From: a virus
Direction: 5' to 3' (one strand)
DNA: 40,150 nt
IMG/VR virus record: IMGVR_UViG_3300047508_000077
Location: 1-40,150 of that record
Numbering within the stretch: the stretch's first letter is position 1; every line of letters starts with the position of its first letter. Of this stretch, positions 3,650-40,102 are shown one piece after another. The position numbers were made by a program, and so were the translations under genes. The notes beneath the pieces are model-generated. The model had not been told where the DNA came from, made no database searches, and saw nothing but the letters and a program-made list of their open reading frames with translations.

Positions 3650-3684
3650 CAACAACAAAACGAAACGATAAACGACTACCCCGA

Positions 3685-4289: not shown

Positions 4290-4317
4290 TTTGCACTCCC
4301 TTTGTTGGTTCGTGGTG

Positions 4318-4542
4318 CTATGAAGCGTTTGTGCTTTCGCACGTTGGACAAAAAAGCATGTCGCCGACCTTCGGATCTGGCGTGCAGAATACGAGCGGCG
4401 CGTGCCCGCATTCGAGTGTGACGTCGTGCATGTTTTCGACAAACGGTATCGGTCGGTGCGTCGCGACGATCCGGCGTTGATACCGCGGATCGTGGAAGCG
4501 CGGATCGTCGCTCCGCATGATCGGAAAATCCCAGTCGCTCAT
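4318..4542 (-). CDS. Small zinc-ribbon-like protein
   Basis: 74 residues. The ATG overlaps the upstream stop as ATGA. Cys and His are paired in LECGHAP and MLFCPTCEST, which could bind one zinc. The N-terminus is polar (SDWDFPIMRSDDPRFHDPRY). It belongs to a run of tiny CxxC proteins between 4.3 and 6.6 kb. No function is recognisable. Confidence 0.65.
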   Translation of the reverse strand: MSDWDFPIMRSDDPRFHDPRYQRRIVATHRPIPFVENMHDVTLECGHAPLVFCTPDPKVGDMLFCPTCESTNAS

Positions 4543-4835
4543 AATTCCCCTCCACACACGGGACACGGCTTGATCGGCATGTGCTGCGCGCACCACGGGC
4601 ACGGCTCGCCGACCGCAAGCAACGGAATCACGATGCTCGGCGCGTCGTTGACCCGCATGATGAATGCCGCGGCGTTATGCTCCAGGCGCTCACTCACGAT
4701 GTGCACGCCCTCGCGGCTTCCGTAGATCGTCGCCACGACGTCGCCGCCGCGGATTACCTCAACGATGAGATCTTCGCCGCGGTCGGGATGGATGTGCGGT
4801 CGCACTCGAAGGTTGAGCGTGCTGCGCTCGCTCAT
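4539..4835 (-). CDS. Small protein with C-terminal CxxC-CxxC ribbon
   Basis: 98 residues. Residues 1-70 look like a small beta fold (LNLRVRPHIHP, LIVEVIRGGDVVATIYG, AAFIMRVNDAPSIVIPLL). Residues 79-94 hold CPWC and CPVC separated by ten residues, a zinc-ribbon arrangement. The ATG at 4835 overlaps the upstream TGA as ATGA, and its own stop overlaps the next ATG in the same way. The start was placed here because the longer upstream frame overlaps a better-supported small gene. Confidence 0.7.
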   Translation of the reverse strand: MSERSTLNLRVRPHIHPDRGEDLIVEVIRGGDVVATIYGSREGVHIVSERLEHNAAAFIMRVNDAPSIVIPLLAVGEPCPWCAQHMPIKPCPVCGGEL

Positions 4836-4999
4836 AATTCCTCGTGCTGGAGCCCGCCGAAGTCTTCGGCCCATCGCAAGAGGTTGGCGAGCGGTTGCCC
4901 TTTGAATTTCCGCACGATTGGCGCGGCGCGCGTGATGATGCCGCGCGCGTCGGTTTCGACTTCGACCGTGAAGCGCGCGCATGATACCCAGTGTTTCAA
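4832..4999 (-). CDS. Conserved small phage protein, 55 residues, TTG start
   Basis: This gene starts with TTG 4999-4997, overlapping the upstream TGA as TTGA, with GGAG eight bases before it. The protein contains RFTVEVETDARGIITRAAP and IVRKFKGQPLANLLRWAE, a pattern I recognise from small hypothetical phage proteins. It looks like a beta-hairpin followed by a helix. It ends ATGA into the next gene. Function is unknown. The overlaps at both ends and the ribosome site are the evidence that it is real. Confidence 0.72.
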   Translation of the reverse strand: MKHWVSCARFTVEVETDARGIITRAAPIVRKFKGQPLANLLRWAEDFGGLQHEEL

Positions 5000-10254: not shown

Positions 10255-11883
10255 TCACGCGACGCGCTCCTTTATTTTGATTGGGATATAGAGATTAGAA
10301 GTGTAAGCTTCGTCAAAACGCCTATTGCACTTCCGATCACCTGACGCCGCGACTTCCGGCACTGGCACTTTTCCGGCGATCTCGACGTATTCGCCATCGA
10401 ACGTCATTTTGAGGTCGACCAGAGCTTCGTAGATGGGGCGGCGCTCGGCGAAGGTTTCCGGCTCGCTATCCAGGGCGGTCAAGAGCTCGCATCCGGCGCG
10501 CACCATGTGCTCGGCGGGGAGAGCGAGTACCGAGCCCGCGGCGCGGATCTCGGCGGCAATACGCGCGACCTCTTGCTTATCGGCGAGGATCTCGGCATTG
10601 CCCTTGTCTTCGTCTTCGGTGCCGAGCTTCACCATGCGCCGCGTGCGGTCGATCCGCGCTTTGACGACGGCGAGCTCGGCTTCGAGTTTCGCGGTTGAAT
10701 TCTTCGACGGCAAGGAATCATAATACGCCGCGGCGTTGGCGATCAAAAGCGCCGGATTCGTGAGTAACCGCCAGATCGCATTCCAGACCACGGCTTCCAG
10801 TACGGCGCACTTGACGCGCGGCGTCGAGCGGCACACTTGCTTGCGGAGCTTGTAATCGTAGTTGCCGCACACGTACGATGCGCCGCTCTTTCCGGTCGAT
10901 GTGCGATGCCGCCGACCGCACGCTTTGCACCGTAGGTATCCGCAAAGCTCGTGCTTCGTGGCGGGCTTGCCGTTCGACATTTCCTTCGCGTCGGCAAACA
11001 TCCGTTGCGCGGCGTCGAACGTGTCGAGCTCGACAAACTTCGGACACTCCATGACCTCGCCGCCCTCGATGTGCTCGCCCGCGTACTTGCGGCGCTTGAG
11101 CATTTGCCGCACGGTTTGCCGCGACCACGCTCCCGGCTCGAATTGCCCCGGCTTGCCCGCGGTGAGAATGCCGCGCTTGTTGAGCTCGGTCTGGATCTTG
11201 CCGACGCGCCATTTCTGCGCGACGCGCCACGCATACACCATCTCGACGACGCCGCGGCGCGTGAGCCCTTCAATCGGCTCGTGACCTTTGGCATACTCGA
11301 CGGGCCGCGTGTCTTCGCGCAAGTATTGGCACTTGCCCGCGGCGTCTTTCGAGTACTTATCGACGTACACCATGCCGTACGGCGGCGTCGTTTGCGTCAT
11401 GCGCTTTTGCTTTTGCGCTTTCTTGCGACCGCCCTTCGTGCGGCGCTTGAGCTCGCGGAGCTCGCTTCCGGCTTGCGTCGCCGCTTCCATGCAAAGTTTC
11501 CAACCGCGGTCGGTCCAGGGCTCGACGATGCCTTCTTTCGTCGACACGATGACCTTTCGGTTGTCGAAGAAAAATTGCAAGATGCGCATCGACTCGAAAT
11601 CCTTCGGTCGGAAGATACGGTCGATTGCCGACACGCTGATACCGTCGACCTTCGGATCGCTGAGTTGCGCGAGCATCGCTTGCACTTCCGCGTTGCCCAT
11701 CACGAGCGTGCCGCTGATTTTGATACGGATCGTGCGCAACACGGTGAGCTCGAATTGCTCGCGGTTTTCCGCGGCGTCGTCTTCTTGCCGCGCGACGTCT
11801 TGACGGTCGCTCGACACGCGGAGCATCTCAATCACGTTGAGCGGCATCGGTTGCTCGGTTAGAGTCGGATTCAGGGTCGCCAT
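10255..11883 (-). CDS. Large serine recombinase (integrase)
   Basis: 542 residues. The N-terminal resolvase domain has LRVSSDRQ with the likely nucleophile Ser24, then VDGISVSAIDRIFRP and VIVSTKEGIV. The Recombinase domain spans about 160-300 (GMVYVD, GILTAG, WSRQTVRQMLKRRKYAGEH). Around 315-360 a zinc ribbon has GYLRCKACGRRH and YVCGNYDYK. A coiled coil follows near 395-430 (AKLEAELAVVKARIDRTRR). This is the domain order of large serine integrases, which join attP and attB through a Ser-DNA bond. The ATG has a perfect GGAGGT eight bases upstream. Its presence argues for a temperate phage; a directionality factor is not identified. Confidence 0.93.
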   Translation of the reverse strand: MATLNPTLTEQPMPLNVIEMLRVSSDRQDVARQEDDAAENREQFELTVLRTIRIKISGTLVMGNAEVQAMLAQLSDPKVDGISVSAIDRIFRPKDFESMRILQFFFDNRKVIVSTKEGIVEPWTDRGWKLCMEAATQAGSELRELKRRTKGGRKKAQKQKRMTQTTPPYGMVYVDKYSKDAAGKCQYLREDTRPVEYAKGHEPIEGLTRRGVVEMVYAWRVAQKWRVGKIQTELNKRGILTAGKPGQFEPGAWSRQTVRQMLKRRKYAGEHIEGGEVMECPKFVELDTFDAAQRMFADAKEMSNGKPATKHELCGYLRCKACGRRHRTSTGKSGASYVCGNYDYKLRKQVCRSTPRVKCAVLEAVVWNAIWRLLTNPALLIANAAAYYDSLPSKNSTAKLEAELAVVKARIDRTRRMVKLGTEDEDKGNAEILADKQEVARIAAEIRAAGSVLALPAEHMVRAGCELLTALDSEPETFAERRPIYEALVDLKMTFDGEYVEIAGKVPVPEVAASGDRKCNRRFDEAYTSNLYIPIKIKERVA

Positions 11884-28240: not shown

Positions 28241-29011
28241 TTACACTCCCGCCGCTTGCGTGACCTTAAAGGTCTGGTTGCCGATCTGAAGGTTGCCCGT
28301 ACGCGCGGGCGTCGGCGCGGTGCTCGCGGCGACCGTATAGCTCACGCTTCCGTTGCCCTGTTGCGGCACGGTCGGCGCGGTCACGGTGAGCCACGACGGC
28401 GAATCGGTCGTCGCAAACCATGAGTTGGGATCGGTCGATGTGACGGCAACCGTCGCCGTGCCGCCCGCCGCGGTTTCGGTGAGGTTGTTGGTCGGCACGA
28501 GCGTTACCGACGCCTGGACGTCGGTCGGCACGCTCGCGACGCGGATCGTCACTTGCCGCGTGCACACACCCGCGAGCGGATACGTCTCGCCGAGTTGCTT
28601 CACGAAGCCGAGAAACACGCGCGTGCGGTGCGTCGAGTCCGTGTTGACCATGCGGAATTTCGTTACCGCGCGATTCTGGTACAGATTCTCGATGCCGAAG
28701 GGCGAGTACAACGAGTGCGTCGGATCGCTCGGGTTGAAGTAGCAGGGAAACGCGAGGTCGCCGTCGTCGATGAGCGTCGGAATAAATGTGCGATGCGGCT
28801 TGCCCGTCGAGTGCGAGGTCGTCTCGGTTTCCGCAACCGACGTGTTGAATCCGGTGATGTCGCCGACGCCCGCAATCGTGGTGAATGCTTCGGGCGACGC
28901 CGTGCTCAAAACCTGGATCTGGGTTCCGAATGCCGCGACCGCGGGATCGGGAGAGACGCCCGTCGGCAGAACCGGGGGCGGGGGTGCGAGTTGCTGCGCT
29001 TGTGTAGCCAT
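28241..29011 (-). CDS. Major tail tube protein with C-terminal BACON/Ig-like domain
   Basis: 256 residues. GGAAG precedes the ATG. Residues 1-165 fit a tail-tube protein by position (between tail terminator and chaperones) and by pattern: GDITGFNTSVAETETTSHST, DDGDLAFPCYFNPSD, HRTRVFLGFVKQLGETYPLA. Residues 170-256 carry SPSWLTVTAPTVPQQGNGSV, then ARTGNLQIGNQTFKVTQAA, a BACON-type Ig-like domain that likely decorates the outside of the tail and may bind carbohydrate or mucus. The tube assignment is strong by context and moderate by sequence. Confidence 0.82.
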   Translation of the reverse strand: MATQAQQLAPPPPVLPTGVSPDPAVAAFGTQIQVLSTASPEAFTTIAGVGDITGFNTSVAETETTSHSTGKPHRTFIPTLIDDGDLAFPCYFNPSDPTHSLYSPFGIENLYQNRAVTKFRMVNTDSTHRTRVFLGFVKQLGETYPLAGVCTRQVTIRVASVPTDVQASVTLVPTNNLTETAAGGTATVAVTSTDPNSWFATTDSPSWLTVTAPTVPQQGNGSVSYTVAASTAPTPARTGNLQIGNQTFKVTQAAGV

Positions 29012-29016: not shown

Positions 29017-29469
29017 TTACTTCCGTATTTGTTGCCGTTCGTGTTGCAGGGGATTGATGACCGGATAGTCGGGCAGAAACTGGAAGAGAATTTCGAACGT
29101 GATCACGACTTGATGTAACTCGGTTTCCGGCTCGTAACTTGAGGTCTGGAGCTTATAGAAGATCGCGCCGAAGTGCACGCCGAGATAGTCGCCCGTCGCG
29201 CCGTCGAGCCGCGAGCGGAGCGTGTCGGCAATGGCGAGCGCGCGCGATTGCGACGTATCGAAAATCGAAATCTGATACTCGCGTTGGAGCACGTCGAGCG
29301 GCGCGCGGATCGAATGCAAAGGAATCGGCCCGACGTGGAAAAAGATCATGTACGGCGTCATCGGCGCGACCGTCGGCTTTTGCGGCGCGCGCACCAACCA
29401 TACGCGCTTGTCGACTAGGTTGAGTTGGATCAACAGTGCGCGGAAGACGTCTTCGAAGATCGGGCTCAT
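29017..29469 (-). CDS. Tail terminator / tail completion protein
   Basis: 150 residues. The ATG overlaps the upstream stop as ATGA. A typical order for this class: an N-terminal helix (IFEDVFRALLIQLNLVDKRV), PMTPYMIFFHVGPIPLHS, an internal beta-hairpin with YQISIFDTSQSRALAIADTL, and a strand VVITFEILFQFLP. It lies between the HK97 gp10-like gene and the tube gene, which is the place of the tail terminator in siphoviruses. Such proteins cap the finished tube as a hexameric ring and join it to the head. Confidence 0.78.
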   Translation of the reverse strand: MSPIFEDVFRALLIQLNLVDKRVWLVRAPQKPTVAPMTPYMIFFHVGPIPLHSIRAPLDVLQREYQISIFDTSQSRALAIADTLRSRLDGATGDYLGVHFGAIFYKLQTSSYEPETELHQVVITFEILFQFLPDYPVINPLQHERQQIRK

Positions 29470-29918
29470 TTGCCGCCGCCGCCATCGGTTGCGTGCCACG
29501 CGTCAGAGCGCGCGACATCGTCGATCAAGGTTTTGAGATCGCCCGCGATCATGTTTGCGTAGAGCGGGCGCGTCGAGTTGAGCGCGGGCCGGAAGTACGG
29601 ATGCGCTTCGCTTCGGCTCGTGCCGAATTCAATGAACGCGCCGTAATAGACGCCCTTCACGCCGACGAGCGCGCCGACTTTGTCTTTCAGTGCGCCCGCG
29701 AAAATCGCCTCTTTCAGCGTGCCTGTCACGACGGGCACGAGGTCTTTCGCTTCGTCGCGGATCACCATTGCGGGCTTCATGACGATGCCCTTCAATCGCT
29801 CGCTAAACGCCGCGGCCCCTTCGCCGGATAGCGTCGCGCCGAGCTCGCGCACCGTCTTGACCAGTTGCGGCACGCCCTCAAGCTTCATCGCCTTCGATTT
29901 GAGCGAGACGGTTTTCAT
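29466..29918 (-). CDS. HK97 gp10-like tail-component protein
   Basis: 150 residues. ATGA overlap with the upstream gene. The pattern of the HK97 gp10/minor tail family is clear: KLEGVPQLVKTVRELGATLS, helix with MKPAMVIRDEAKDLVPVVTG, TLKEAIFAGAL, VYYGAFIEFGTSRSEAHPYF, RPALNSTRP. This protein acts at the head-tail joint next to the terminator. The length is usual for the family. Confidence 0.86.
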   Translation of the reverse strand: MKTVSLKSKAMKLEGVPQLVKTVRELGATLSGEGAAAFSERLKGIVMKPAMVIRDEAKDLVPVVTGTLKEAIFAGALKDKVGALVGVKGVYYGAFIEFGTSRSEAHPYFRPALNSTRPLYANMIAGDLKTLIDDVARSDAWHATDGGGGK

Positions 29919-30385
29919 ACGTGGAGTTGGATCGTGACCGAGGTCCACGAGTTTTGCCCGTCCATGACCGCGGTCACCGTCTCGGTGCTCGCCGCGGCGA
30001 CGGTCGCGGGCGCGGTATAGAGTCCGGTCGCGTCGATGGTTCCGAGCGCGCCGCCAGAGATCGACCACGTGAATGTTGCCGCCGGAATCGTCGCGCCCGA
30101 TGCGTCGACCGCGCTCGCGGTGAATTGCTGCGTCTCGCCGGGGCCGAGCGACGCGCCCGTCGGCGAGACGACGACGCGGTCGCCCGCACTGCGTTGTGTG
30201 TACGTGACGCTATTCGTCAATGTGCGGTCGCTCGAATTCATCGAGTGCGTCGTGCCGCCGCCGTCGAACGTGACGCCCGCATTGGAGCTTGTCCAATTCG
30301 TGCCCGCGACGTACGCGTCGAGCGCGTCGAAAACTGCCTGTAGCTTCGGGTCGAGTGCGAATCCGGTTGGTCTGGGTGGCGTCAT
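29915..30385 (-). CDS. Ig-like (BIG2-type) structural protein
   Basis: 156 residues. GAGGGAG lies upstream of the ATG. Residues 1-65 are a short unrecognised part (DPKLQAVFDALDAYVAGTNW). Residues 70-156 form an Ig-like domain with VVVSPTGASLGPGETQQFTA, then TFTWSISGGALGTIDATGLY and ETVTAVMDGQNSWTSVTIQL. It sits between the second capsid-like gene and the gp10-like gene. A head decoration protein or an externally displayed module that binds surfaces is a fair guess; no direct evidence. Confidence 0.75.
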   Translation of the reverse strand: MTPPRPTGFALDPKLQAVFDALDAYVAGTNWTSSNAGVTFDGGGTTHSMNSSDRTLTNSVTYTQRSAGDRVVVSPTGASLGPGETQQFTASAVDASGATIPAATFTWSISGGALGTIDATGLYTAPATVAAASTETVTAVMDGQNSWTSVTIQLHV

Positions 30386-30395: not shown

Positions 30396-31307
30396 TCACG
30401 ACAGTAGGAACGTGCCTTTTGCAAATGCCGACGGTTGGTAGATCGCGAGCGCGAGCCGCTCTTCGGCACGCATCACGACGAGGTTGCGGATGAAGTCGTC
30501 TTCGTTCTGCGTGGCGACTTCAATCGCCGCGTCTTCGCGGTCGAAGATCTGCGAGAACGGATCGAACTGCCCGACCAGATAGTTACCGCTCGCCATCGCT
30601 TGCGTCACGACGACGGGGATGCCCCAGAGCGATACCGGAGTCGTGACCAGTGTCGGCGCGCCGAGCGCGAAGAGCATGAGTCCGAAATCGTTCGGGTTGA
30701 GCACGATGCCGTTGGGCGCATAGCCTTGCCCGTAGACGCTCGCGACGCCGCTCGCCACGCCCGCGAGCACCGCGGCGGGGCCGGGACTCGGCACGGGCGC
30801 GGGCGGCGGCGCGGTGAGTGCGACCGCCATAAAACCTTGCAGGTTTGCGCCCGTGCCGTCGCCGTTCAAAAACTGATTTTCTTCGGCGAGCGCGAGCCCG
30901 TACATCAAGCGCGCATCCATCCACGACTGAAGCATCGCGAAATCTTGCCAGTATTGCTTGGGCAATTTCAGGTACGCCGGAATCGTGATCACGGGTTGCA
31001 AGTGCACGTCGTACGACGTGACGGGTTGCGGCTTCGGCGCGCCTGGAGCGACGGGGCCGATCACGCTCGCGTTGAAGCTCACTTCGCGCAAGTAGACGAT
31101 CCCCGAGCCGACGGTCGTTCCCGGTGCGATGAGCGACCGCATCCGGTACAACCACGTGCGACCGGGGATCACGCGGTCGACGGTTTCGTATGTCGGCGGA
31201 TAGCTCAGAATCGGCGTGACCGCTTTGCGGTCGAGCGTGAGCTCGAAGCGGCGGCACTCGGGTTTTTCGGTGAGTGTGTCGGTGATCTGCTGCCCTGCGG
31301 TTTTCAT
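30396..31307 (-). CDS. Second HK97-fold capsid-like protein (paralogue without delta domain)
   Basis: 303 residues. The ATG overlaps the upstream TGA and has a near-perfect GGAGG site. It starts near the mature part of an HK97 capsid protein and has its typical signatures: AEENQFLNGDGTGANLQGFM, NPNDFGLMLFALGAP, LWGIPVVVTQAMASGNYLVG, then NEDDFIRNL followed by RAEERLALAIYQPSAFAKG. The C-terminal 45 residues match the first capsid gene (32457-33812) closely, and RKAVTPI is shared near the start. It lacks the N-terminal coiled-coil scaffold. It could be a minor capsid subunit, a special lattice position, or an alternative shell protein. It lies outside the usual capsid position, after the joining genes. 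Confidence 0.85.
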   Translation of the reverse strand: MKTAGQQITDTLTEKPECRRFELTLDRKAVTPILSYPPTYETVDRVIPGRTWLYRMRSLIAPGTTVGSGIVYLREVSFNASVIGPVAPGAPKPQPVTSYDVHLQPVITIPAYLKLPKQYWQDFAMLQSWMDARLMYGLALAEENQFLNGDGTGANLQGFMAVALTAPPPAPVPSPGPAAVLAGVASGVASVYGQGYAPNGIVLNPNDFGLMLFALGAPTLVTTPVSLWGIPVVVTQAMASGNYLVGQFDPFSQIFDREDAAIEVATQNEDDFIRNLVVMRAEERLALAIYQPSAFAKGTFLLS

Positions 31308-31633
31308 TCGACCTCCATACAGGTGAGTTGCAATTGCACGTGCCGACGCATCACGTCGTCGATGCCTTTGATCTGGTACACGCGGTCGCGGTCTTGCACG
31401 CGCCAACGCGCGTCGATGTCGGCGCGGTAGCGGATGACTACCGCGATCCTGGTCGTCGCGACCGTGCGGCCCGCTTGATTCAATTCCATTGCGGTTTCCG
31501 GCATGATGCTCGCCCAGACCGTCGTCACCGCGGCATAGCTCACGATCTCGTCGAGCGCGGCGTTGTATTGCGGCGCGAGCAACGTCACGCGCTTATCGAG
31601 AGTGCCCGCTTCGATGCCGGGATGCTCGGGCAT
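31304..31633 (-). CDS. Head-tail adaptor (Phage_H_T_join-type)
   Basis: 109 residues. ATG one base after the upstream stop. Residues 9-105 follow the joining-protein pattern: GTLDKRVTLLAPQYNAALDE, VTTVWASIMPETAMELNQAG, RIAVVIRYRADIDARWRV, DRVYQIKGIDDVMRRH. Such proteins (SPP1 gp16/HK97 gp7-like stoppers) seal the portal after packaging and receive the tail. The order portal, capsid, connector, this gene fits. Confidence 0.87.
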   Translation of the reverse strand: MPEHPGIEAGTLDKRVTLLAPQYNAALDEIVSYAAVTTVWASIMPETAMELNQAGRTVATTRIAVVIRYRADIDARWRVQDRDRVYQIKGIDDVMRRHVQLQLTCMEVE

Positions 31634-31634
31634 A

Positions 31635-32156
31635 TCAGTAGACGGGGTAGTCCCGCTCCATGCTCATGAGAGCTTTCCACGCAATCGGCGCGTCGACCCA
31701 TCGACCGTCGCGCATGAGCTCGCGGTTGCGATACCAATCGCCGATCAGAATCAACATGCCTTGCTTGATGTTTTCGCCGACGCTCGCATCGATCTGATAC
31801 CGGAGATAGTTTTCCGAGTGAATGCGCGCCGCCATTTCGAGTTGCTTGAGATAGTCGTCGTCCGCGGTCTGGTCGAGCTCAACGTGACACTGCGCCTTGA
31901 TCTCGGCGATTGTGAGCACGGGCTCGCGGCTCGACGCCGAGTCGCTCGGTGTGACGGGCGGCGGCGGGGAGACGTCGCCGCCGCTACCGTCGGTCGTCGT
32001 GCCGCCAGTGAGCACGGTCGCCATGTCGCGCACAAAGTTGTCGCGGTCTTCGAATGCCGCGGGCAGACTCGGTCCACCGATGTCGCTCAACGACTGCGTC
32101 GAGACTTGCGTATTCGCGAGCACGACGTCGGGTTGCTGGTCGGGTAGATCGTTCAT
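31635..32156 (-). CDS. Head-tail connector (HK97 gp6-like)
   Basis: 173 residues. The ATG overlaps the upstream TGA as ATGA. Residues 1-80 are an unstructured Asp/Ser/Thr/Pro-rich arm (GGTTTDGSGGDVSPPPP). Residues 85-173 match gp6-type connectors: LTIAEIKAQCHVELDQTADD, YLKQLEMAARIHSENYLRY, IKQGMLILIGDWYRNRELM, IAWKALMSMERDYPV. It forms the first connector ring under the portal. The long N-terminal arm is unusual for this family. Confidence 0.85.
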   Translation of the reverse strand: MNDLPDQQPDVVLANTQVSTQSLSDIGGPSLPAAFEDRDNFVRDMATVLTGGTTTDGSGGDVSPPPPVTPSDSASSREPVLTIAEIKAQCHVELDQTADDDYLKQLEMAARIHSENYLRYQIDASVGENIKQGMLILIGDWYRNRELMRDGRWVDAPIAWKALMSMERDYPVY

Positions 32157-32290
32157 GCGAGAATCACCGCGAGTATCCAGAGAGAGAGCCCGAGCGATTG
32201 CAGGTTGAGCCGCGGCGCACTCACGCCGAGCGCGCTCAAGAGCAAGCACACGAAGCCGACAATCATTAGCAAGAGTCGGAGCGTGATCAC
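32153..32290 (-). CDS. Small hydrophobic phage protein (45 residues)
   Basis: A GTG start at 32290-32288 overlaps the upstream TGA as GTGA and has AAAGGGGG before it. The protein has two membrane-like segments (LRLLLMIVGFVCLLLSALGV and LQSLGLSLWILAVILA) joined by SAPRLN. Proteins of this shape often occur near head genes of phages, function unknown. It could be a holin-like membrane protein, but the position and the lack of a nearby endolysin do not support that strongly. Confidence 0.72.
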   Translation of the reverse strand: MITLRLLLMIVGFVCLLLSALGVSAPRLNLQSLGLSLWILAVILA

Positions 32291-32460
32291 GTTTCCCCCT
32301 TTCGCTCGATAGCGGGCGAGGGCGGTATGCGTTGCTTTGCGATGCCCTCGCGGATGAGGTCTTGCGCCAGATCGTCGGTGAGAGCGGCAACCTCGCCTTT
32401 GCGAAATTGCCGCCCTCCCGCGGCGACATGGTCTTTCAGGAATTGAACGGTCGTGGTCAT
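32287..32460 (-). CDS. Small head-region protein (57 residues)
   Basis: The ATG overlaps the capsid stop as ATGA. The sequence reads VQFLKDHVAAGGRQFRKGEV, then ALTDDLAQDLIREGIAKQR: a beta-hairpin with a short helix, a pattern often seen in tiny proteins after the major capsid gene. It may be an accessory head or decoration protein. Too short for a firm call. Confidence 0.72.
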   Translation of the reverse strand: MTTTVQFLKDHVAAGGRQFRKGEVAALTDDLAQDLIREGIAKQRIPPSPAIERKGET

Positions 32461-33812
32461 GGTTTGCGTGTCGGCGGCGGCGTCGGTTTCGAACCGCCGT
32501 TGATCGTGTCTTCGCCGCCGAGCGCGCCGAGCGCGAGCGGTGCGAGGAATGGCCCTTTCGCGTACGCCTTCGGCACGAAGACGGCAAACGCGACGCGCTC
32601 TTCGGCGCGGATCGTGATCAGGTTGCGGATGAAGTCGTCTTCGTTCTGGAATGCCATCTCGACATTCACCGTCTCGCGGTCGAAGAGCGCGCTCGTGCCG
32701 GGAAACGCGCCGCACAAATAGTCGGTTGCCGACATGACGGGCGTCGTATACACGGGCAAGCCCCATAGCCGTTGACCGGGGCCGTCTTGAATCGGCGATC
32801 CCGGCAAGAGGTACGAACCGAAAGACGTCTTCAAACTTTCGATCCGATACCACGTCGTCGGGTTAAGCACGAACGCCGTCGGGAAGTAAAACTGATTCTC
32901 GATGTACGCGGTCGCGGCGTTGAGTTGGTCGAGCGGATTGTCGGTCGTCGGCGCGGGGCCGGGATAGTACACGGTCGCGGGCGTGGCTTGCGGCATGATG
33001 CCCCACAGATGGCCCGCGGAGTTGTCGCCGTTTAAGATCTCGGCGTCTTCTTTGATCAGCACGAAAAGCGTGAGCCGATTGTTGATGGTCGAGATGATGA
33101 AATTCACATCGCTCGCCATCTGCCGCGACACTTTGACATAGTGGGCAATCGTGCGCACAACCGCGGTGTGCTCGGTGTAGATAACCGAGCTCGTGCCTTT
33201 GACGTCGCCTTCGAGGATCTGGTACGCCGCGCCGCTCGTCCACGCTTCGGTGACGTACTCGACCGCGTTGGTGCCGTCGAGCGGAATCACGTCGACGAGA
33301 TCGCGCATCGTCGGTTTCAAATACTGCTGCGCGATGAGCCCGACGCGTTGCGGAAAGATCGGGTACGCGCCGACGGGCGGCGTGATTGTGGTCTGCCCGC
33401 CTTCGATGATCGGCGTTACCGCTTTGCGGATGATGCGCGTTTTCGTGAAGCCCGATTGAATCTGAAACTTGCCGGAAAACTGCGCGTTTTTAAAGTTGTC
33501 GCTTTCGATGAAGCGTTGTCCGAGCGTCTTCATGTCGGGCAATGCAAGATCGCCCATGCCTCCCGGCGGTCGCGAGATGCGCGCGCCGAGCTCTTTGATC
33601 TGCACGCCCTGCGACTCGATTTGCTTTTGCTGGTCGGCGATCACTTTGTCGGTGATCGTGATGAGCGCGGCGTCGGTCTTTTCGCATTTCGCGCGCGCTT
33701 CCGCGTCGACGAAACCTTTTTTGGCGTATTGCTCCATGCCCTCTTCGAAGCTCTTCCGCCATTCGACGCGGAGCTCGCGTACTAGTTCAAGGTCTTGTGG
33801 GTCGAGTGCCAT
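32457..33812 (-). CDS. Major capsid protein, HK97 fold
   Basis: 451 residues. The ATG at 33812 is seven bases after the protease stop, with GGAAGGAA upstream. Residues 1-90 are a helical, coiled-coil delta domain (ITDKVIADQQKQIESQGVQI) that would act as internal scaffold and be cut by the protease. Residues about 130-440 are the HK97 fold: RKAVTPIIEGGQTTITPPVG, YVTEAWTSGAAYQILEGD, AEILNGDNSAGHLWGIMPQ, LWGLPVYTTPVMSATDYLCG, NEDDFIRNLITIRAEERVAF. A Pro-rich tail (KPTPPPTRKP) follows. A shorter paralogue lies at 30396-31307. Confidence 0.93.
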   Translation of the reverse strand: MALDPQDLELVRELRVEWRKSFEEGMEQYAKKGFVDAEARAKCEKTDAALITITDKVIADQQKQIESQGVQIKELGARISRPPGGMGDLALPDMKTLGQRFIESDNFKNAQFSGKFQIQSGFTKTRIIRKAVTPIIEGGQTTITPPVGAYPIFPQRVGLIAQQYLKPTMRDLVDVIPLDGTNAVEYVTEAWTSGAAYQILEGDVKGTSSVIYTEHTAVVRTIAHYVKVSRQMASDVNFIISTINNRLTLFVLIKEDAEILNGDNSAGHLWGIMPQATPATVYYPGPAPTTDNPLDQLNAATAYIENQFYFPTAFVLNPTTWYRIESLKTSFGSYLLPGSPIQDGPGQRLWGLPVYTTPVMSATDYLCGAFPGTSALFDRETVNVEMAFQNEDDFIRNLITIRAEERVAFAVFVPKAYAKGPFLAPLALGALGGEDTINGGSKPTPPPTRKP

Positions 33813-33819: not shown

Positions 33820-34464
33820 TTATTCCTTCCAAAGCGACTGCGCGGTGAGTGCGCGCAATGCTTGACTGCGCCGCATAAACGGCGATGCGTCGTCGAGCAT
33901 CCCACCCGAAGACTGGTTGTAATCGGCGACGACGCGCATGATGCGCCGTGCGTCCGACTTCGAGAAACGCTCTACTTCCCGCAGATGTTTCTCTAAATCG
34001 CGAAAGGTTTTTACGTCGCTGACAAAAGCTTTGGGTTGCGCCGGAAACGGCGTGATCGAGATTTCATACAAGTTGATCTCTTTTAGCGTGCGCACGTTGC
34101 CGTCAAAATCCCAATCCTGCGCCGTGAAGCCGATGCTCATGCCGACGCGGAAGTCGAGCTCCGCGGCTTTTTGCAAGAGCGCGTACGCATCCGCGCCGTC
34201 GCTATTGCCGAGCGCGATCTCGCCCGCCATGATGAGCCCTTTGCCGTCTTCGGCGAGCGAGGTCGAAACGCCGATCCAGTCTTCGTGATTGAAAAAGATC
34301 GGCACTTTGCCGCGCTTGTCGGTGATCGACTGCGCAAACGCTCCGGGTTGGATCTTGTCGTTTTGCAGGTCGAGATTGTACGTCGACGCGTAGCCGCTAA
34401 ACGCGCCCGCTTTGTCGTCGGCGACCGTCTTAAACTGCATGAGTGTGTGATAGGCGTAACCCAT
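33820..34464 (-). CDS. HK97-family prohead protease
   Basis: 214 residues. AAAGGAG precedes the ATG. The family's catalytic pattern is present: His60 in PIFFNHED, Ser110 in RVGMSIGFTA, and a conserved Glu in LKEINLYEISITPFPA. Start GAFSGYASTYNLDLQNDKIQ is typical of Peptidase_S78. It cleaves the delta domain of capsid subunits during prohead maturation and sits between portal and capsid genes, as usual. Confidence 0.93.
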   Translation of the reverse strand: MGYAYHTLMQFKTVADDKAGAFSGYASTYNLDLQNDKIQPGAFAQSITDKRGKVPIFFNHEDWIGVSTSLAEDGKGLIMAGEIALGNSDGADAYALLQKAAELDFRVGMSIGFTAQDWDFDGNVRTLKEINLYEISITPFPAQPKAFVSDVKTFRDLEKHLREVERFSKSDARRIMRVVADYNQSSGGMLDDASPFMRRSQALRALTAQSLWKE

Positions 34465-34474: not shown

Positions 34475-35728
34475 TCACTGCGCGGGCGAGGCGGGCGCGA
34501 GCGGCTTGCCGTCGTCCGCGGCGTTCACCATGTTGAGCGGCGTGAGGTACGTGTCGCCGCCGTCGATCTTGTTTTGATCTTCGAGCTCGCGGATGTCGTT
34601 GGCGCTTGCCCAACCCCATTGCCGCGCGGTCGCATAACTCAGATAGCGCGTGCGGATGTCGCTTCGCTCGAAGCCGTTGAGATTCATCCGGTATGTGTAG
34701 GGCGCTTCGAGCAACGCTTTGTCGATGGATTGCTCGATGCTCACCACATACGGGTTGATCGTGTACCGCACAAACTCGATGCTCTGTTGCTCGACGCTCG
34801 CGTACGTCGGCTTATCCATTGCGCCGATGAGGTGCGGCGGCACGCCGAAGATGCGCGCGATCTGCTCGACCGAAAACTTTTTCTCTTCGATGTAGTTGAG
34901 TTGACTTAGTGGAATCGCGAGCGGCGTATACTTGACGCCCTCTTCGAGAATGCAGAGCTTGCCCGCGTTGAGCGGCCCCGAGTGCGTCTCGCGCCACGAT
35001 TCGCGGATACGGTCGACTTGCGGTTTCGTGAGTGCGTTGGGCGATTCGAGCACGCCGCTCGGTTGCCCGCTGTTTTGATAGATCGAGTACGCGTACGCCG
35101 ACGTCGCCGCTTCGAAGTCGAGCGTCATACGGTGATAGTCGAGCACGGGCAATCCGATATAGCCGTCGAGCGTGTAGAGCCGAAAATGGATCACGTCGGC
35201 GCTCGTGAACATGTGCGCGCGACCGCGCATGTCCGAGTAGTAGTAACCGAGCGTGCCGTCTTCCAAGAGCATGATCTGTACGCGCGCCGGATTGAGCGGC
35301 CATAGGCCGACGACTTCGCCGCCGATAGTGTCTTTCCACGTGAAGGCGTTGCCCCAGAGCAAGAGCGACATCATCGTCGGTTGCATCCACTGCGACGCGG
35401 TCATCGTGTTGTTAGGCGAGCGCGTGAGCGTGTTGTAAAGCGGGTTGTCGATTGCCTTCACTTTGCCCTGCGCGGTTTCCTCGAAGACGTTCGACGGCAA
35501 ACTCGCAATCGAATTCGCGATCACGCGGCAACACGCCCAGACCGCGGCACTCTGGAGCGCGCGGTTTACCGACGGGTTCATGCCGACGATTCCCGGCAAC
35601 GTGTTGATCGGCGCGCCGCCGCTCGCGCCGACCACGTTAGAGCTCGGCGTGCGGTTGGCGACGGTCACGCTACCGATGGTCGTGATCGCTTTCCAGGCGC
35701 GCGAGATGAGGGTTTTCAGATCGTCCAT
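34475..35728 (-). CDS. Portal protein, HK97 family
   Basis: 417 residues from ATG 35728, 13 bases inside the terminase gene. The longer open frame upstream is a terminase shadow. Signatures: ALQSAAVWACCRVIANSIAS, PLYNTLTRSPNNTMTASQWM, LLLWGNAFTWKDTIGGEVVG, LWPLNPARVQIM, DVIHFRLYTLDGYIGLPVLD, KKFSVEQIARIFGVPPHLIG and a C-terminal helical part. The portal forms the dodecameric ring at one capsid vertex through which DNA enters. Order with terminase and protease is canonical. Confidence 0.93.
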   Translation of the reverse strand: MDDLKTLISRAWKAITTIGSVTVANRTPSSNVVGASGGAPINTLPGIVGMNPSVNRALQSAAVWACCRVIANSIASLPSNVFEETAQGKVKAIDNPLYNTLTRSPNNTMTASQWMQPTMMSLLLWGNAFTWKDTIGGEVVGLWPLNPARVQIMLLEDGTLGYYYSDMRGRAHMFTSADVIHFRLYTLDGYIGLPVLDYHRMTLDFEAATSAYAYSIYQNSGQPSGVLESPNALTKPQVDRIRESWRETHSGPLNAGKLCILEEGVKYTPLAIPLSQLNYIEEKKFSVEQIARIFGVPPHLIGAMDKPTYASVEQQSIEFVRYTINPYVVSIEQSIDKALLEAPYTYRMNLNGFERSDIRTRYLSYATARQWGWASANDIRELEDQNKIDGGDTYLTPLNMVNAADDGKPLAPASPAQ

Positions 35729-37425
35729 AAGCCCCGGTTTTCGTAGTCGGCGCGCGGTGCCGCGTTGCGCTTCATGGCGCGCGATAGCGCCATCACGAGC
35801 GCGGTCACGCCGTCGATTTTCTTTTCTTCGGATTCCTTCCGCGGTTGGATCAAGTCGCCGACGCGGTGACACTTGACGTTTGCCATCATCCACGCGAGCA
35901 CTGGGTCGCCATCATGCCGGATCTTTTGCGAGATGACCAGACCTTCGAGCTCGGTCATCGCGGGCGACATGTTGGCGGGCGATTGCCGGATGTCGACAAT
36001 CGGCGCGCGGATGCCGAGCTTTTGGAGTCCGGTCACGATGGGCAGGTTTTTGTACGGATCGCTCGCGATCTCGATCACCTGGAAACGCGTCGCGAGGTCG
36101 GCGATGTGATCGAGAATGTAATCGAAATTCGTCACGTTGCCGGGAGTCGAGATGATGCGGCCCTGCGACTCCCAACCTTGATAGTGCTGATTCTCGCCGC
36201 GCGCGATTGTGTCTTCGGGCAAGTAGTGATAGGCGAAGACCGCGCCATGATCGCGCGTGCCGTGCGGCGGAAAGTATGCGACGAGATCGGCGATGTCACT
36301 TCGAAACGCGAGGTCGAGTCCGAGATAGCATTGCTCGTGCTCCAGGTCGAGAATTTCGAGCTCGGGGTCGGCGCACTTTTCCCACGCGCCCGCGGGCAAC
36401 CACGCGCTATCCGCGTTGACCCACACGTTGCAATGCCGCGTGAGGTACGCGTTCTGTTGCGACGGCATCGACTGCGCGCGCGCCGCGGCGATGCGCAGAC
36501 TCTCGGGATAGATCGACACGCCGTAATTGGGATTGGCTTTGATCTGCGCGGTTTCCGAGTACGGATCGTCGCCGTCGTCAATCGTGTAGATGATGCCGAA
36601 GTACGAATCGTCGGCGCTCACGCCGTCGAGAATGTCGATCACGTGCGCGCGTTGTTCATAGCACACGCTCGCGCGGTTGAGCCCCGCGGTCGTGATCGCC
36701 CAGATCAACGGTTGCGAGCGCGATCCGGTCGCGGTTTCGAGCACGTCCCACAAGCCGCGCGTCGGATGTGCATGGAGCTCGTCGATCAACGCCGCGTGAA
36801 TGTTGAGCCCGTCGAGATTCGAATGCTCCGCGGAAAGCGCCTCAAACTTGCTCGCGGTCGACGGTTGCACGATGGTATGCGCGGGCACTTCGACGCCGAA
36901 TTTCGAAAGGAATCCCGGCTCGCGCTTCGCCATGTATTGGGCGTCGTTAAAGACGAGCTTCGCTTGATCGCGCGTGTTGGCGGCGCTCACGACGTACGCG
37001 CCCGCTTCGTTGTCGCACGCGACCAGATAGCAACCGAGCGCGCTCGTGAGCGTTGACTTCGCATTCTTCCGCGGCACTTCGATATAGGCGACGCGGAATC
37101 GCCGCGTCTCGGTCGCGGTGCACTGCCAACCGAAGACGGTCGCGAGAATGAAGCTCTGCCAGTGTTCGAGCTCGATCCGCTTGCGTTGCTGCGCCCAAAC
37201 GCCTTTGATGTGCGGAAAGCGTTGCACGATGTCGCACACGCGATTGCCCGCCGCGCCGTCGAAGTAAAACGGTTGGTCTTTGCCTTTGTACTTGTCGAGG
37301 TCGCGCAATTGCCGCTCGCACGCGAGCTTGACGAAGCGGCACGCGAGCACTTTGCCCGAGATCACGTCTTCGCAGTATTCGAGCGCCGCGCTTACGTGCG
37401 GTAGTGCGCGCGTCGCGGTGGGCAT
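35716..37425 (-). CDS. Terminase large subunit
   Basis: 569 residues. ATPase domain: a degenerate Walker A VPRKNAKST at 117-125, Walker B ALIDELHAH at 212-220, then a coupling motif around WAITTAG (242-248). The nuclease domain has acidic residues at Asp371 (LGLDLAFRSD), Asp456 (IEIASDPYKN) and Asp538 (KKIDGVTALVMAL). This arrangement matches the Terminase_1/HK97-type large subunits that cut concatemers and pump DNA. It starts 19 bases after the small subunit. A cos mechanism is suggested by the nearby HNH gene, though not proven. Confidence 0.94.
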   Translation of the reverse strand: MPTATRALPHVSAALEYCEDVISGKVLACRFVKLACERQLRDLDKYKGKDQPFYFDGAAGNRVCDIVQRFPHIKGVWAQQRKRIELEHWQSFILATVFGWQCTATETRRFRVAYIEVPRKNAKSTLTSALGCYLVACDNEAGAYVVSAANTRDQAKLVFNDAQYMAKREPGFLSKFGVEVPAHTIVQPSTASKFEALSAEHSNLDGLNIHAALIDELHAHPTRGLWDVLETATGSRSQPLIWAITTAGLNRASVCYEQRAHVIDILDGVSADDSYFGIIYTIDDGDDPYSETAQIKANPNYGVSIYPESLRIAAARAQSMPSQQNAYLTRHCNVWVNADSAWLPAGAWEKCADPELEILDLEHEQCYLGLDLAFRSDIADLVAYFPPHGTRDHGAVFAYHYLPEDTIARGENQHYQGWESQGRIISTPGNVTNFDYILDHIADLATRFQVIEIASDPYKNLPIVTGLQKLGIRAPIVDIRQSPANMSPAMTELEGLVISQKIRHDGDPVLAWMMANVKCHRVGDLIQPRKESEEKKIDGVTALVMALSRAMKRNAAPRADYENRGLWTI

Positions 37426-37444: not shown

Positions 37445-37903
37445 TTATCCGACGTCTTCCCAACCGTCGGCGGTCGGTGCCGACGACGGCTTGCCCGCAT
37501 CGATGCGCGCGCGACTGCACGGCGTGAAGCCGAGCTCGCTCGCCGCGCGGATCATCAGAACCATTTGCCGATTGATGATCGCGAGGTACGGATTCTGCAT
37601 GGGTAGCTCTTGCTTCGGACTCTTCACGAGTAACTGCGATTGCGCCATCGCGACGCACGCTTTGCGGTGCGTGTCTTCGGCGACGATGAATCCGGCGAGT
37701 ACGGCTTTGTCGATGCGGCGCAGAATCTCGCGCGGCGCGTTTTCGAGCGTGTACGCCCACTCGGTCTTTTGCTCGGCGGTGAGCCACTCGGGCGGATCGG
37801 CGAGCGGTCCCGGCGTCGGCGTGCGGCGCGCAATAAGTTTCTCCGCTTTCTTTCCGGTCATGCGGAGGATTTTCAATTCGACGGGTTTCTTTTTACCTGC
37901 CAT
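37445..37903 (-). CDS. Terminase small subunit, P27 family
   Basis: 152 residues from ATG 37903 (AAGG eight bases upstream; overlaps the carboxy-SAM synthase gene by 11 bases). P27-type signatures: KKPVELKILRMTGKKAEKLI, DPPEWLTAEQKTEWAYTLE, AVLAGFIVAEDTHRKACVAM, and LPMQNPYLAIINRQMVLMIR followed by ELGFTPCSRARI. It recognises the packaging site on phage DNA and hands it to the large subunit. Its direct overlap with the modification genes ties modification and packaging to one transcript. Confidence 0.9.
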   Translation of the reverse strand: MAGKKKPVELKILRMTGKKAEKLIARRTPTPGPLADPPEWLTAEQKTEWAYTLENAPREILRRIDKAVLAGFIVAEDTHRKACVAMAQSQLLVKSPKQELPMQNPYLAIINRQMVLMIRAASELGFTPCSRARIDAGKPSSAPTADGWEDVG

Positions 37904-38618
37904 GATCGTTACCTTTGATCGCGACCCATGCCGCAAAATTCATCCAACGCCAATAGCAATCGACGCTTCGGAATCCGGCGTCGCGAAGCATCGACTCATT
38001 CCATGCCGCGGTGATCGGCACGAGCACACCTTCGAGCGAGAGCCGCTTACGCTCGATGGCGTTTTCGTCGTATCCGTTCTCGCGCTTCAGATAGTAGTAG
38101 AGCTCGACGAAGGTCCGGTCGAGCTCGAAGTTATTGCCGAGCACTTTCTCGACGAGCAAGAGCGCGCCGCCGGGAAGTAACGAATCGTGGATGTGTTGCA
38201 CGATCCGCATCCGGTATTCGATGGGAATGAATTGGAGCGTGAGCACGGCGAGCGCGACCGAGTACTCGCCCGCCGGAAGCTCGCTCCGCAAATCCATTTC
38301 GAGCACTTCGACCAGATCGCCGTGCGGCGCGAGCTCGGCGCGCGCGGCTTCGACCATCGGCTTTGAGATGTCGACGCCGACGTACTCATTCGACACGTCG
38401 AGCACGCTCGCGATCTCGGCGAGTTGCACGCCGCGCGAGCAACCGTAATCGATGATCGACGTTCCGAGTTGCGCAAACTTGAGCGCGAGGTCGGTCGTCG
38501 CGCGGCGCATCACGTTGTATTGCGGAATCGAGCGCGCGAGCATGTCGTCGAAAGCGCGCGTCACGTCGTCGTCAAACTTCCATGCGCCGAGCGGTTGTAC
38601 GTTGTCGATCTCAGGCAT
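37893..38618 (-). CDS. CmoA-like carboxy-S-adenosylmethionine synthase
   Basis: 241 residues. It aligns along its length with bacterial CmoA, which turns SAM and prephenate into carboxy-SAM: WKFDDDVTRAFDDMLARSIP, IIDYGCSRGVQLAEI (SAM-binding loop), VGVDISKPMVEAA, LTLQFIPIEYRMRIVQHIH, LLPGGALLLVEKVL, YYYLKRENGYDENAIERKRL, and WMNFAAWVAIKG. Arg192 in ERKRLSLEGV falls where E. coli CmoA has Arg199, the residue that holds the carboxylate. No CmoB (the tRNA carboxymethyltransferase) is present. It is coupled by 8 bases to the C5 methyltransferase and by 11 to the terminase. I infer that it feeds carboxy-SAM to the methyltransferase; plain methyltransferase activity is the alternative. Confidence 0.87.
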   Translation of the reverse strand: MPEIDNVQPLGAWKFDDDVTRAFDDMLARSIPQYNVMRRATTDLALKFAQLGTSIIDYGCSRGVQLAEIASVLDVSNEYVGVDISKPMVEAARAELAPHGDLVEVLEMDLRSELPAGEYSVALAVLTLQFIPIEYRMRIVQHIHDSLLPGGALLLVEKVLGNNFELDRTFVELYYYLKRENGYDENAIERKRLSLEGVLVPITAAWNESMLRDAGFRSVDCYWRWMNFAAWVAIKGNDHGR

Positions 38619-39561
38619 TGAGTATCCGGTCGCGGATCACCGCGGCGACCTCGCGCATCATGAGCGGCGGCACGGCGCGCGCGACGCGCTCCCACTGCTG
38701 CGCATACGTTCCGGTGAGCTCGAAGTCGTCGGGGAATCCGGCGACGGCTTTGAGCTCGCGCATGGTGAAGCGCCGCCGCTCGCCGAGCTCGGCTTCCACC
38801 TGGAGCGCGCGCGTCGCCTGGAGCGTCGCCGCGGCGCGGTAGGCCGACGAGTAGCGGTGATGATTGAAACCGTTGGCCCCTTCGACGGCGCGCAAATGCG
38901 GCACCGCATCGGCGACCGAGTACGAATACCGGAAGGGCCGCGGAAACGCCGGATCACGCGCGAGGTCTTCGCGCACGCCGATGAAGATAAGCCGCTCGCG
39001 GCTTTGCGGCACGCCGAGCCATTTCGCGTCGAGTACCTGCGACCGCACGCGGTAACCGTGCGCCTGGAACGCGGCGAGGATATCGAGGAAATATCCTTTG
39101 GCGACGCCCTTCACGAGTCCGCTCACGTTCTCGGCGACGAAGACTTTCGGGCGAAGCTCGCCGACGATCCGCGCATATTCGAAAAACAGATCGTCGGTGC
39201 GTTGCTCTGTATCGCTGTACGGTTTCACACTACCCCAGTCGCGGGCGCGTTTCCCGGCGCTCGAAAAGCTCGCGCACGGCGGCGAACCTTCGAGCACGTC
39301 GACGCCGCGGTCGCCGATTGAATCTAGGGCCGTTTCCGCCGCGGCAATCAGGGTTTTAGCCGTGACCGTGCGCACGTCGGAAGCGTCGAGCGGCGTCTCG
39401 GGGAAGTTGGCGCGGTACGTGTCGCGCGCCGCGGCGACGAATTCGCAAGCGTAGACGACGCGGAAGCCCGCCATGCGGAAGCCGAGACACGAGCCGCCGC
39501 AACCCGAAAAGAGCGACGCGACCGTGTAACCGTTCCGCGGCACCGCGGCGATCTCGGTCAT
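38611..39561 (-). CDS. C5-cytosine DNA methyltransferase with motif X Asn-to-Arg change
   Basis: 316 residues from ATG 39561 (an ATG at 39639 would overlap the ParB-like gene and add an unconserved tail). All catalytic motifs are present: I LFSGCGG (17-23), II with Glu40, IV SPPCASFS with Cys96, VI AENV with Glu144, VIII QSRER (186-190), IX RRRFTMREL (262-270) and GFPDDF. The target domain is short. In motif X, where methyltransferases normally have GN(A/S)V, this protein reads ARAVPP: Arg295 replaces the Asn near the transferred group. An engineered Asn-to-Lys change in motif X of M.MpeI is known to let it use carboxy-SAM and make 5-carboxymethylcytosine. With the CmoA-like neighbour, DNA carboxymethylation is the likely reaction (inference). 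Confidence 0.92.
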   Translation of the reverse strand: MTEIAAVPRNGYTVASLFSGCGGSCLGFRMAGFRVVYACEFVAAARDTYRANFPETPLDASDVRTVTAKTLIAAAETALDSIGDRGVDVLEGSPPCASFSSAGKRARDWGSVKPYSDTEQRTDDLFFEYARIVGELRPKVFVAENVSGLVKGVAKGYFLDILAAFQAHGYRVRSQVLDAKWLGVPQSRERLIFIGVREDLARDPAFPRPFRYSYSVADAVPHLRAVEGANGFNHHRYSSAYRAAATLQATRALQVEAELGERRRFTMRELKAVAGFPDDFELTGTYAQQWERVARAVPPLMMREVAAVIRDRILNA

Positions 39562-39583
39562 CGTCGGCACGCGATAGGCGGGC

Positions 39584-40102
39584 TTAGAATCGATAGCCGC
39601 ACTTCGGGCACTCGTGCTCGGTTGCCATGTTGCCGTCATATTCTCGAAACTCTTCGGGTGCGCTCACGCCGCGCATGAGCTTTTGAAATTCGTCATCAGT
39701 GAAGCCGATCAAGTCGAGCGCGTACGCGTCGCGGAGCTCGCTCAATTCACCCGCGAGCAACGTGTTGTCCCATTGCGCGTTGAGCGCGAGCTTGTTGTCG
39801 GCGAGCACATACGCGCGTTTCTTCGCGTCGCTCCAACCGCGGGCGACCAGTACGGGCACGTTGACGTATCCGAGCTTGCGCGCGGCGAGTACGCGACCGT
39901 GACCCGCGATGATGCCGTCGAGCTCGTCGATCAAAACCGGGATCGTCCATCCCCACTCGCGGATCGACGCGGCGATCTGCGCAACGTGCGCGTCGTCGTG
40001 CACGCGGGCATTCCTCGCGTACGGCACGAGCGACGCAACCGAGCGCGTCTCAAGCGCCGCGGCGGCGGGTCTGAGCGATAAAAGCTCGGTCGATGGGCTC
40101 AT
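39584..40102 (-). CDS. Stand-alone ParB/Srx-like domain protein
   Basis: 172 residues from ATG 40102; a TTG at 40141 would lie in the terminal repeat. Residues 20-125 match the ParB-like domain usually fused to phage DNA methylases: LVPYARNARVHDDAHVAQIA, IREWGWTIPVLID, GIIAGHGRVLAARKLGYVNV, AYVLADNKLALNAQWDNTLL. The end is HECPKCGYRF, a half ribbon. Here no methylase is fused; a C5 methyltransferase gene follows 22 bases after the stop. ParB-type domains bind DNA and nucleotides, some with nuclease activity. A link to the modification enzyme, for example target control, is inferred from its usual partner. Confidence 0.85.
   Translation of the reverse strand: MSPSTELLSLRPAAAALETRSVASLVPYARNARVHDDAHVAQIAASIREWGWTIPVLIDELDGIIAGHGRVLAARKLGYVNVPVLVARGWSDAKKRAYVLADNKLALNAQWDNTLLAGELSELRDAYALDLIGFTDDEFQKLMRGVSAPEEFREYDGNMATEHECPKCGYRF

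Follow-up and report, generated by a model that had tools for sequence, protein, structure and literature searches.

A second HK97-type capsid protein, possibly a vertex subunit, in a group of uncultivated tailed phages

Introduction

How one capsid protein can form both the pentamers and the hexamers of a shell is a classic question. In HK97, D3, and phiXacJX1, a single capsid gene, whose product carries a delta domain, serves both. Among tailed phages, the well-studied case in which two paralogues share the work of the shell is T4. Its proteins gp23 and gp24 are about 20% identical. From the N-terminus of gp24, the vertex protein, 10 residues are removed, versus 65 for gp23, and the A domain of gp23 is the site of some of the bypass mutations (PMC9958956). 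The Family 2B encapsulins of Streptomyces lydicus also have two HK97-fold shell proteins, which co-assemble (PMC12407261). An HK97-fold encapsulin from which the A-domain loop at the capsomer center was deleted formed, without cargo, no shells other than T=1 ones made entirely of pentamers (PMC11092584).

Here, we analyze a phage genome with two HK97-type capsid genes. The window (the whole stretch of DNA that was analyzed, 40,150 nucleotides) is a single virus record, IMG/VR record IMGVR_UViG_3300047508_000077. Within open-access text, we did not find any description of a phage with two capsid proteins of family PF05065.

Results

Two intact capsid proteins in one head operon

The head genes of the window lie on the minus strand. 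The large subunit of terminase (35716..37425; PF03354 and PF20441) precedes the portal protein (34475..35725; PF04860, 2e-98), an S78 prohead protease (33820..34464; PF04586, 2.1e-20), and the main HK97-type major capsid protein, which we call MCP1 (32457..33812; 451 amino acids; PF05065, 2.6e-37; phrog_10, 9.2e-49). Immediately 3' of MCP1 is a small protein of 57 amino acids (32287..32460; phrog_2616, a function-unknown family, 1.1e-4) that is also kept in relatives. The head-tail adaptor Ad1 (31635..32156; phrog_40, 1.4e-16) and the head closure protein Hc1 (31304..31633; PF05521, 1.4e-18) come next, followed by the second HK97-type capsid protein, MCP2 (30396..31307; 303 amino acids; PF05065, 6.3e-30; phrog_10, 9.4e-36). 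An Ig-like (Big_2) protein (29915..30385; PF02368, 2e-7) lies 3' of MCP2, and then Neck1, an HK97 gp10-like tail completion protein (29466..29918; phrog_5, 2e-16). The MCP2 gene thus sits 3' of Ad1 and Hc1, within the block of neck genes. The stop codon of Hc1 and the start codon of MCP2 overlap as ATGA, and GGAGG is found just upstream of the start.

A first-pass annotation of the window had proposed that it contains two capsid genes with common motifs (NEDDFIRNL, RAEER, AKG-F, and RKAVTPI), and that the second gene lacks the scaffold or delta domain and lies beyond the joining genes. All of this holds: both genes are present, each alone matches PF05065 (Phage_capsid) and PHROG 10 (major head protein), the four motifs are common to both, and the second gene is without a delta domain and past Ad1 and Hc1. 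The alignment of the two proteins spans the entire fold (32% identity, E = 5e-41), and by this measure their likeness far exceeds chance.

In the AlphaFold model of MCP1, the delta domain consists of two helices (residues 5-32 and 37-79). MCP2 does not have this helical N-terminal part of about 100 residues, nor do any of 12 MCP2 sequences, all of which begin at the linker. About 28 residues precede an invariant RKA (R27, K28, and A29) in MCP2, versus about 124-130 in MCP1. This short N-terminal stretch (residues 1-28; 31224..31307, minus strand) ends in a candidate maturation cleavage point, with R27-K28 preceding A29. Judging by the spacing to the preceding phenylalanine, RKA is likely the equivalent of HK97 K103, and cleavage there may be inferred by likeness to K103, whose placement on MCP2 varies with an unstable alignment. 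The model of MCP2 has low pLDDT at residues 20-37.

Otherwise, the predicted fold of MCP2 is intact (pLDDT of 82), with an E-loop, a spine helix, and A and P domains. The nearest structures are PDB 2ft1, 9ous, and 9lbm, and by sequence the nearest proteins of known structure are those of HK97, D3, and phiXacJX1. The top match is chain G of HK97 Head II (2ft1_G; Z of 26.5, rmsd of 2.3 over 252 residues); the model of MCP1 is nearest to a prohead chain. The preference for chain G is suggestive but weak support for a special position in the lattice, because the conformation of an AlphaFold monomer does not indicate lattice position.

These comparisons bear on whether MCP2 assembles apart from MCP1, as a small shell or an encapsulin-like compartment. 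Encapsulins are scaffold-less HK97-fold proteins that can self-assemble, and the model of MCP2 does match them (Z of 17-19). Against the Family 2B encapsulin structures 9bje and 9bix (Z of about 17), identity over the aligned parts is 13% and 9%. However, MCP2 is much nearer to the capsid proteins of HK97, D3, and phiXacJX1. Of the Pfam families, PF05065 alone matched MCP2; there was no match to an encapsulin family, with a resemblance in the fold only, and none to a T4-type capsid family. MCP2 also retains capsid cross-link residues (see below), and no cargo or targeting gene was recognized near it. The alternative shell raised by the first-pass annotation is left without support, and we consider a separate compartment highly improbable.

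Cross-link residues are kept and the capsomer-center loop is often shortened

As judged from sequence equivalence, MCP2 in the window holds the full cross-link triad of HK97, as do the capsid proteins of D3 and phiXacJX1, which share its family and fold. K92, in the E-loop (31032..31034, minus strand), is the equivalent of HK97 K169 and is invariant in 12/12 sequences. E282 (30462..30464, minus strand), the equivalent of E363, is glutamate in all 12. N275 (30483-30485, minus strand), the equivalent of N356, is asparagine in 10 and aspartate in the other two (L003 and L026). The corresponding residues of MCP1 are K205, N397, and E404. The E-loop of MCP2 has a constant length of 37 in the eight sequences measured.

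The A domain is less constant. Residues 204-228 of MCP2 (NPNDFGLMLFALGAPTLVTTPVSLW; 30624..30698, minus strand; 25 residues) form a segment with a shortened A-domain loop. This segment has 23-28 residues in 8 of 12 MCP2s, versus 32-34 in all 31 MCP1s; in a further 39 capsid proteins, it has 32-40 (Fisher p of 1e-8, with rows that are not independent). The other four MCP2s retain the full-length loop, and the MCP2 tree has three changes in loop length. The motif K...G.Y of the segment is found in 2/12 MCP2s, 31/31 MCP1s, and 36/39 other capsid proteins. The placement of this loop at the capsomer center, in HK97 as well, is taken from homologous folds.

Contacts between capsomers would thus be kept while contacts within capsomers are relaxed, which fits a minor subunit of the same cross-linked shell. 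One such subunit would be a random or sparse component of a mixed lattice, in hexamers as well as pentamers, that has no fixed position and tunes the stability or size of the shell. Two-component HK97-fold encapsulins do make mixed shells of variable composition (PMC12407261), and the retained cross-link residues are consistent with this. However, loss of the capsomer-center loop in 8 of 12 MCP2s is expected to be harmful to hexamers (PMC11092584), and MCP2 has no delta domain to steer its entry into them. We view a mixed lattice as unlikely.

MCP2 recombines independently of MCP1 and is absent from many relatives

MCP2 is present in at least 16 IMG/VR contigs (about 12 lineages), and it is intact and delta-less in every case. 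As the first-pass annotation had suggested looking for, related phages show the same arrangement of two capsid genes: MCP2 is directly 3' of Hc1, inside the late head operon, in nearly all carriers. The exception is the L029-L032 lineage, in which MCP2 lies between Ad1 and Hc1. About 20 related contigs, including records of 37-42 kb, contain MCP1 but not MCP2.

In our trees, every MCP1 falls in one clade and every MCP2 in a second, with 100/100 for each clade, and the split between them predates the radiation of MCP1. On the best tree, MCP2 joins single capsid proteins of other phages (99/90); its sister group consists of capsid proteins from metagenomic phages, L006, L008, and L013 among them. 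Unlike MCP2, those proteins have a delta domain and are encoded directly 3' of the protease, and no second capsid gene was seen within the stretch examined. MCP2 is also 43% identical to the capsid protein of Xanthomonas phage phiL7, versus 32% to its neighbor MCP1. The trees rule out a recent tandem duplication of MCP1 and do not support the simple duplication within the lineage that had been proposed at first; two AU tests do not reject an ancient duplication that came before MCP1 radiated (p of 0.256 and 0.44).

That the two homologous genes share an operon might indicate that MCP2 is a recent duplicate or a decaying copy without function. However, dN/dS for MCP2 is about 0.22, which is what purifying selection gives. 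This, along with its intactness in 16 contigs and the age of the split, makes a functionless copy barely credible.

MCP2 did not co-evolve with MCP1: their distances are not correlated, their tree topologies conflict (AU p of 0.001 to 0.0001), and MCP2 is found beside MCP1s of only 42% likeness. As far as these comparisons go, MCP2 recombines freely and independently of MCP1. Such independence would suit the loosely specified partner of a mixed lattice. Nor does MCP2 track Hc1 or Neck1 across carriers (rho of -0.12 and 0.22), which argues against an accessory protein of the portal vertex or neck, placed around the portal or the head-tail joint and not at the other eleven vertices. The gene does lie inside the neck block, directly after Hc1, and L003 is the best or nearly the best match for Hc1, Neck1, and MCP2 from the window (72%, 70%, and 82%). 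However, a complete HK97 fold with cross-link residues would not be needed at that site, and we think this role quite improbable.

The patchy, plug-in-like occurrence of MCP2 and its exchange independently of MCP1 could also point to a weapon in phage/satellite competition, with a scaffold-less capsid protein as the agent that poisons co-infecting elements' shells or diverts them. But MCP2 belongs to the late structural operon, with a start that overlaps the stop of Hc1, and its cross-link residues have been conserved over the long term. Also, any poison able to fit into HK97 lattices would damage the phage's own shell. We rate this explanation as very improbable.

No isolated phage among the matching records resembled the window in this respect: 772 records matched MCP2 at E of 1e-5 and 989 at E of 10, and none matched in two places. 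A comparable protein query recovered both the MCP1 and MCP2 genes in the window. A prophage search found 14 loci in bacterial genomes, all of which matched as single capsid genes (27-42% identity).

Discussion

The best reading of MCP2, and the one among the first-pass suggestions that we favor, is that of special vertices. Specifically, MCP2 would be a minor, specialized HK97-fold subunit of MCP1's cross-linked shell, most likely the pentamer protein; we see the case for this as evenly balanced. Its presence in virions, five-fold placement, processing, and low copy number are all what we infer under this reading. MCP1, with its delta domain, would build the hexamer lattice, and MCP2, made in lower amounts from a gene coupled to Hc1, would fill the five-fold positions. 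The S78 protease would cut the delta domain off MCP1 and perhaps 28 residues off MCP2. After expansion, lysines in the E-loops of MCP1 and MCP2 would form cross-links across capsomers with asparagines in the P domains of the two proteins.

A vertex role fits the retention of predicted capsomer-joining residues, the relaxed loop at the capsomer center, the location in the late head operon, and dN/dS of about 0.22. By analogy, T4 gp23 and gp24 offer a precedent for a shorter second propeptide. Several observations count against it. A subunit that makes many specific contacts would normally co-vary with MCP1, which MCP2 does not. Presumably, MCP1-type proteins alone can form closed shells, because about 20 relatives lack MCP2. 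Also, 4/12 MCP2s have a full loop, two have aspartate in place of N356, and gene order differs in L029-L032.

As in T4, one phage has two HK97-fold proteins, the second with a far shorter N-terminal propeptide, and specialization would be tied to the A domain (PMC9958956). Unlike the T4 pair, MCP1 and MCP2 belong to a separate family and apparently arose separately: both are PF05065 proteins, cross-link residues are kept, and the MCP2 gene lies past neck genes. Also, gp24 is essential, whereas many relatives of MCP2 carriers do without MCP2. The Family 2B encapsulins are cellular compartments without a portal or prohead protease and are distant in sequence.

More broadly, a group of HK97-type cross-linking tailed phages may have independently evolved a five-fold vertex protein, as an optional module that is exchanged apart from the main capsid protein; we advance this tentatively, at somewhat less than an even chance. 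If true, it would be a second split of shell work, unrelated to T4's, in the HK97 family, and MCP1 and MCP2 would be a pair of cross-linkable shell proteins, given their predicted residues. Relatives with and without MCP2, and homologues with and without the capsomer-center loop, provide natural comparisons. On this reading, an automatic annotation of "major capsid protein" can conceal a minor subunit.

Two capsid genes in the window

The first-pass annotation reported two HK97-fold capsid genes, and both are present on the minus strand: the main capsid protein with an N-terminal delta (scaffold) domain (MCP1; 32457-33812, 451 amino acids) and a second, delta-less one (MCP2; 30396-31307, 303 amino acids). 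Each matches PF05065 and PHROG 10 on its own, and they align at 32% identity (E = 5e-41). The gene order is terminase large subunit, portal, prohead protease (S78), MCP1, a 57-amino-acid protein, head-tail adaptor (Ad1), head closure (Hc1), MCP2, an Ig-like protein, tail completion protein (Neck1), tail terminator, and major tail protein. The start of MCP2 overlaps the stop of Hc1 (ATGA), with GGAGG upstream. None of the phage records with a match contained a second such capsid gene, and we found no paper on two such proteins in one phage among the open-access texts searched.

Elsewhere in the window, a large serine recombinase (10255-11883) suggests that the phage is temperate. Directly upstream of the terminase, positions 37893-39639 encode a methyltransferase (phrog_4752) together with a C5 cytosine DNA methylase (PF00145, 2.5e-53), and a polynucleotide-kinase-like AAA domain is fused to an HNH endonuclease at 294-1076 (PF13671, 3e-17; PF01844, 2e-4). 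The major tail protein (28241-29011; phrog_158) has a C-terminal extension that resembles a bacterial Ig-type domain (TATVAVTS...FKVTQAAGV) and has no match in Pfam.

MCP2 in related phages

IMG/VR scans and tblastn across fetched loci identified the two-capsid arrangement, which the first-pass annotation had suggested looking for, in 16 metagenomic contigs: the window, L003, L026 to L032, L043, L049, L118, L119, L120, L124, and L131. These represent about 12 lineages or fewer, because L029-L032 are a single lineage, the MCP2 of L118 and L119 are identical, and L120 and L131 are near-copies. Most carriers have the order Hc1-MCP2-Ig-like; the L029-L032 lineage instead has its MCP2 gene between Ad1 and Hc1 (L030:7440-9224). 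About 20 contigs have the same operon without MCP2 (such as L034, L036, L039-L042, L075-L085, and L125-L128), and there Hc1 adjoins the Ig-like gene or Neck1. A PF05065 search of whole records gave two capsid genes in every carrier tested and one in every non-carrier; some of the non-carrier records are 37-42 kb long. Mapped on the MCP1 tree, carriage of MCP2 requires three changes.

The Ig-like (Big_2) gene between MCP2 and Neck1 (29915-30385) is kept in most relatives, carriers or not. It diverges faster than any other gene in this block, sharing 37-48% identity with its counterpart in the window. In L075, the terminase and portal frames appear broken or internally deleted (2822-4869; terminase pieces q1-80, q385-476, and q478-569), perhaps due to assembly errors. 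The terminase large subunit (652-3474) of L003, the nearest relative, has an in-frame insert of ~365 residues in the ATPase P-loop (1024-2088; KNAK|ALALD...THN|STLTS); it matches LAGLIDADG PF14528 (1.6e-10) and is an intein with a homing endonuclease.

Origin of MCP2

All 31 MCP1 form one clade and all 12 MCP2 another (support 100/100 each); therefore, the split predates the radiation of MCP1. Duplication followed by specialization had been proposed. In the best tree, MCP2 groups instead (support 99/90) with single capsid proteins from other metagenomic phages, but a tree that keeps MCP1 and MCP2 together was not rejected (AU p = 0.44). Both acquisition from another phage and ancient duplication are possible sources.

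MCP2 has its own evolutionary history. Pairwise identities of MCP1 track those of portal, protease, and Ad1 (rho = 0.67, 0.74, and 0.65), while those of MCP2 track none of the compared genes (rho = -0.33 with MCP1). Groupings found with one gene were rejected in AU tests with the other gene (p = 0.0011, 0.0001, and 0.0002). Between L027 and L028, terminase, portal, protease, MCP1, and Ad1 are 84-89% identical, versus 58-60% for Hc1 and MCP2.

Predicted structure and conserved residues

The intact fold assumed for the second protein is borne out by its AlphaFold model (pLDDT 82; low confidence at residues 20-37 only). The nearest solved chains are capsids of HK97, D3, and phiXacJX1, and the best match is HK97 Head II chain G (Z = 26.5, rmsd 2.3). 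By convention, chain G is the pentamer subunit, but we give this match little weight as a sign of a pentamer position. The MCP1 model shares this fold but has a delta domain of two long helices added at the N-terminus, and best matches prohead chains. MCP2 has dN/dS of ~0.22 (window-L003, 0.105/0.487; L028-L030, 0.263/1.21), as computed on open frames that also take in some codons upstream.

The residues of the HK97 cross-link, which joins one capsomer to another, are kept in MCP2 (HK97 numbering): the equivalents of K169 and E363, the catalyst, in 12/12 and that of N356 in 10/12 (D in L003 and L026). All three are constant in 31 MCP1 and 39 other capsid proteins, except for one cut-off sequence, and the E-loop has 36-38 residues everywhere. 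The cross-link itself joins K169 to N356 (PMC5701804).

The A-domain segment, measured from NP to W (HK97 278-309), has 32-34 residues in all MCP1, 32-40 in the others, and 23-28 in 8 of the 12 MCP2, with three changes in length on the MCP2 tree. The K...G.Y motif of its loop is left in just two of the 12. In HK97-fold shells, as in SPP1 (PMC6813328) and P22 (PMC4113789), loops of the A domain meet at the capsomer center. Deleting a loop of this kind from the Myxococcus encapsulin gave all-pentamer T=1 shells, unless cargo held larger ones together (PMC11092584); topology and motif suggest that this loop is equivalent to the one shortened in MCP2. MCP2 also keeps R27-K28-A29, ~28 residues from the N-terminus, at the point where cleavage would be expected in an HK97-type protein, so this is a candidate cleavage site.

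Possible role of MCP2

As far as sequences indicate, MCP2 has conserved contacts between capsomers, relaxed contacts within them, and no scaffold domain of its own. In the simplest interpretation, it is a minor component of the cross-linked shell that MCP1 forms. Co-assembly with MCP1, in any position, is probable. The five-fold vertices would be the most likely position, given the retained cross-link residues and the loop shortened in 8/12, and of the arrangements proposed earlier, special vertices rank above a mixed lattice. We assign MCP2 to the vertices tentatively: it does not co-vary with MCP1, many relatives manage without it, and four MCP2 have a full-length A-domain loop.

In T4, the propeptide has 10 residues in the vertex protein (gp24) and 65 in the main capsid protein (PMC9958956); MCP2 likewise has a short stretch (~28 residues) before RKA. 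MCP2 would work like gp24, but it belongs to the HK97/PF05065 family and not to that of gp24. If MCP2 is a vertex protein, then a gp24-like function exists in another family.
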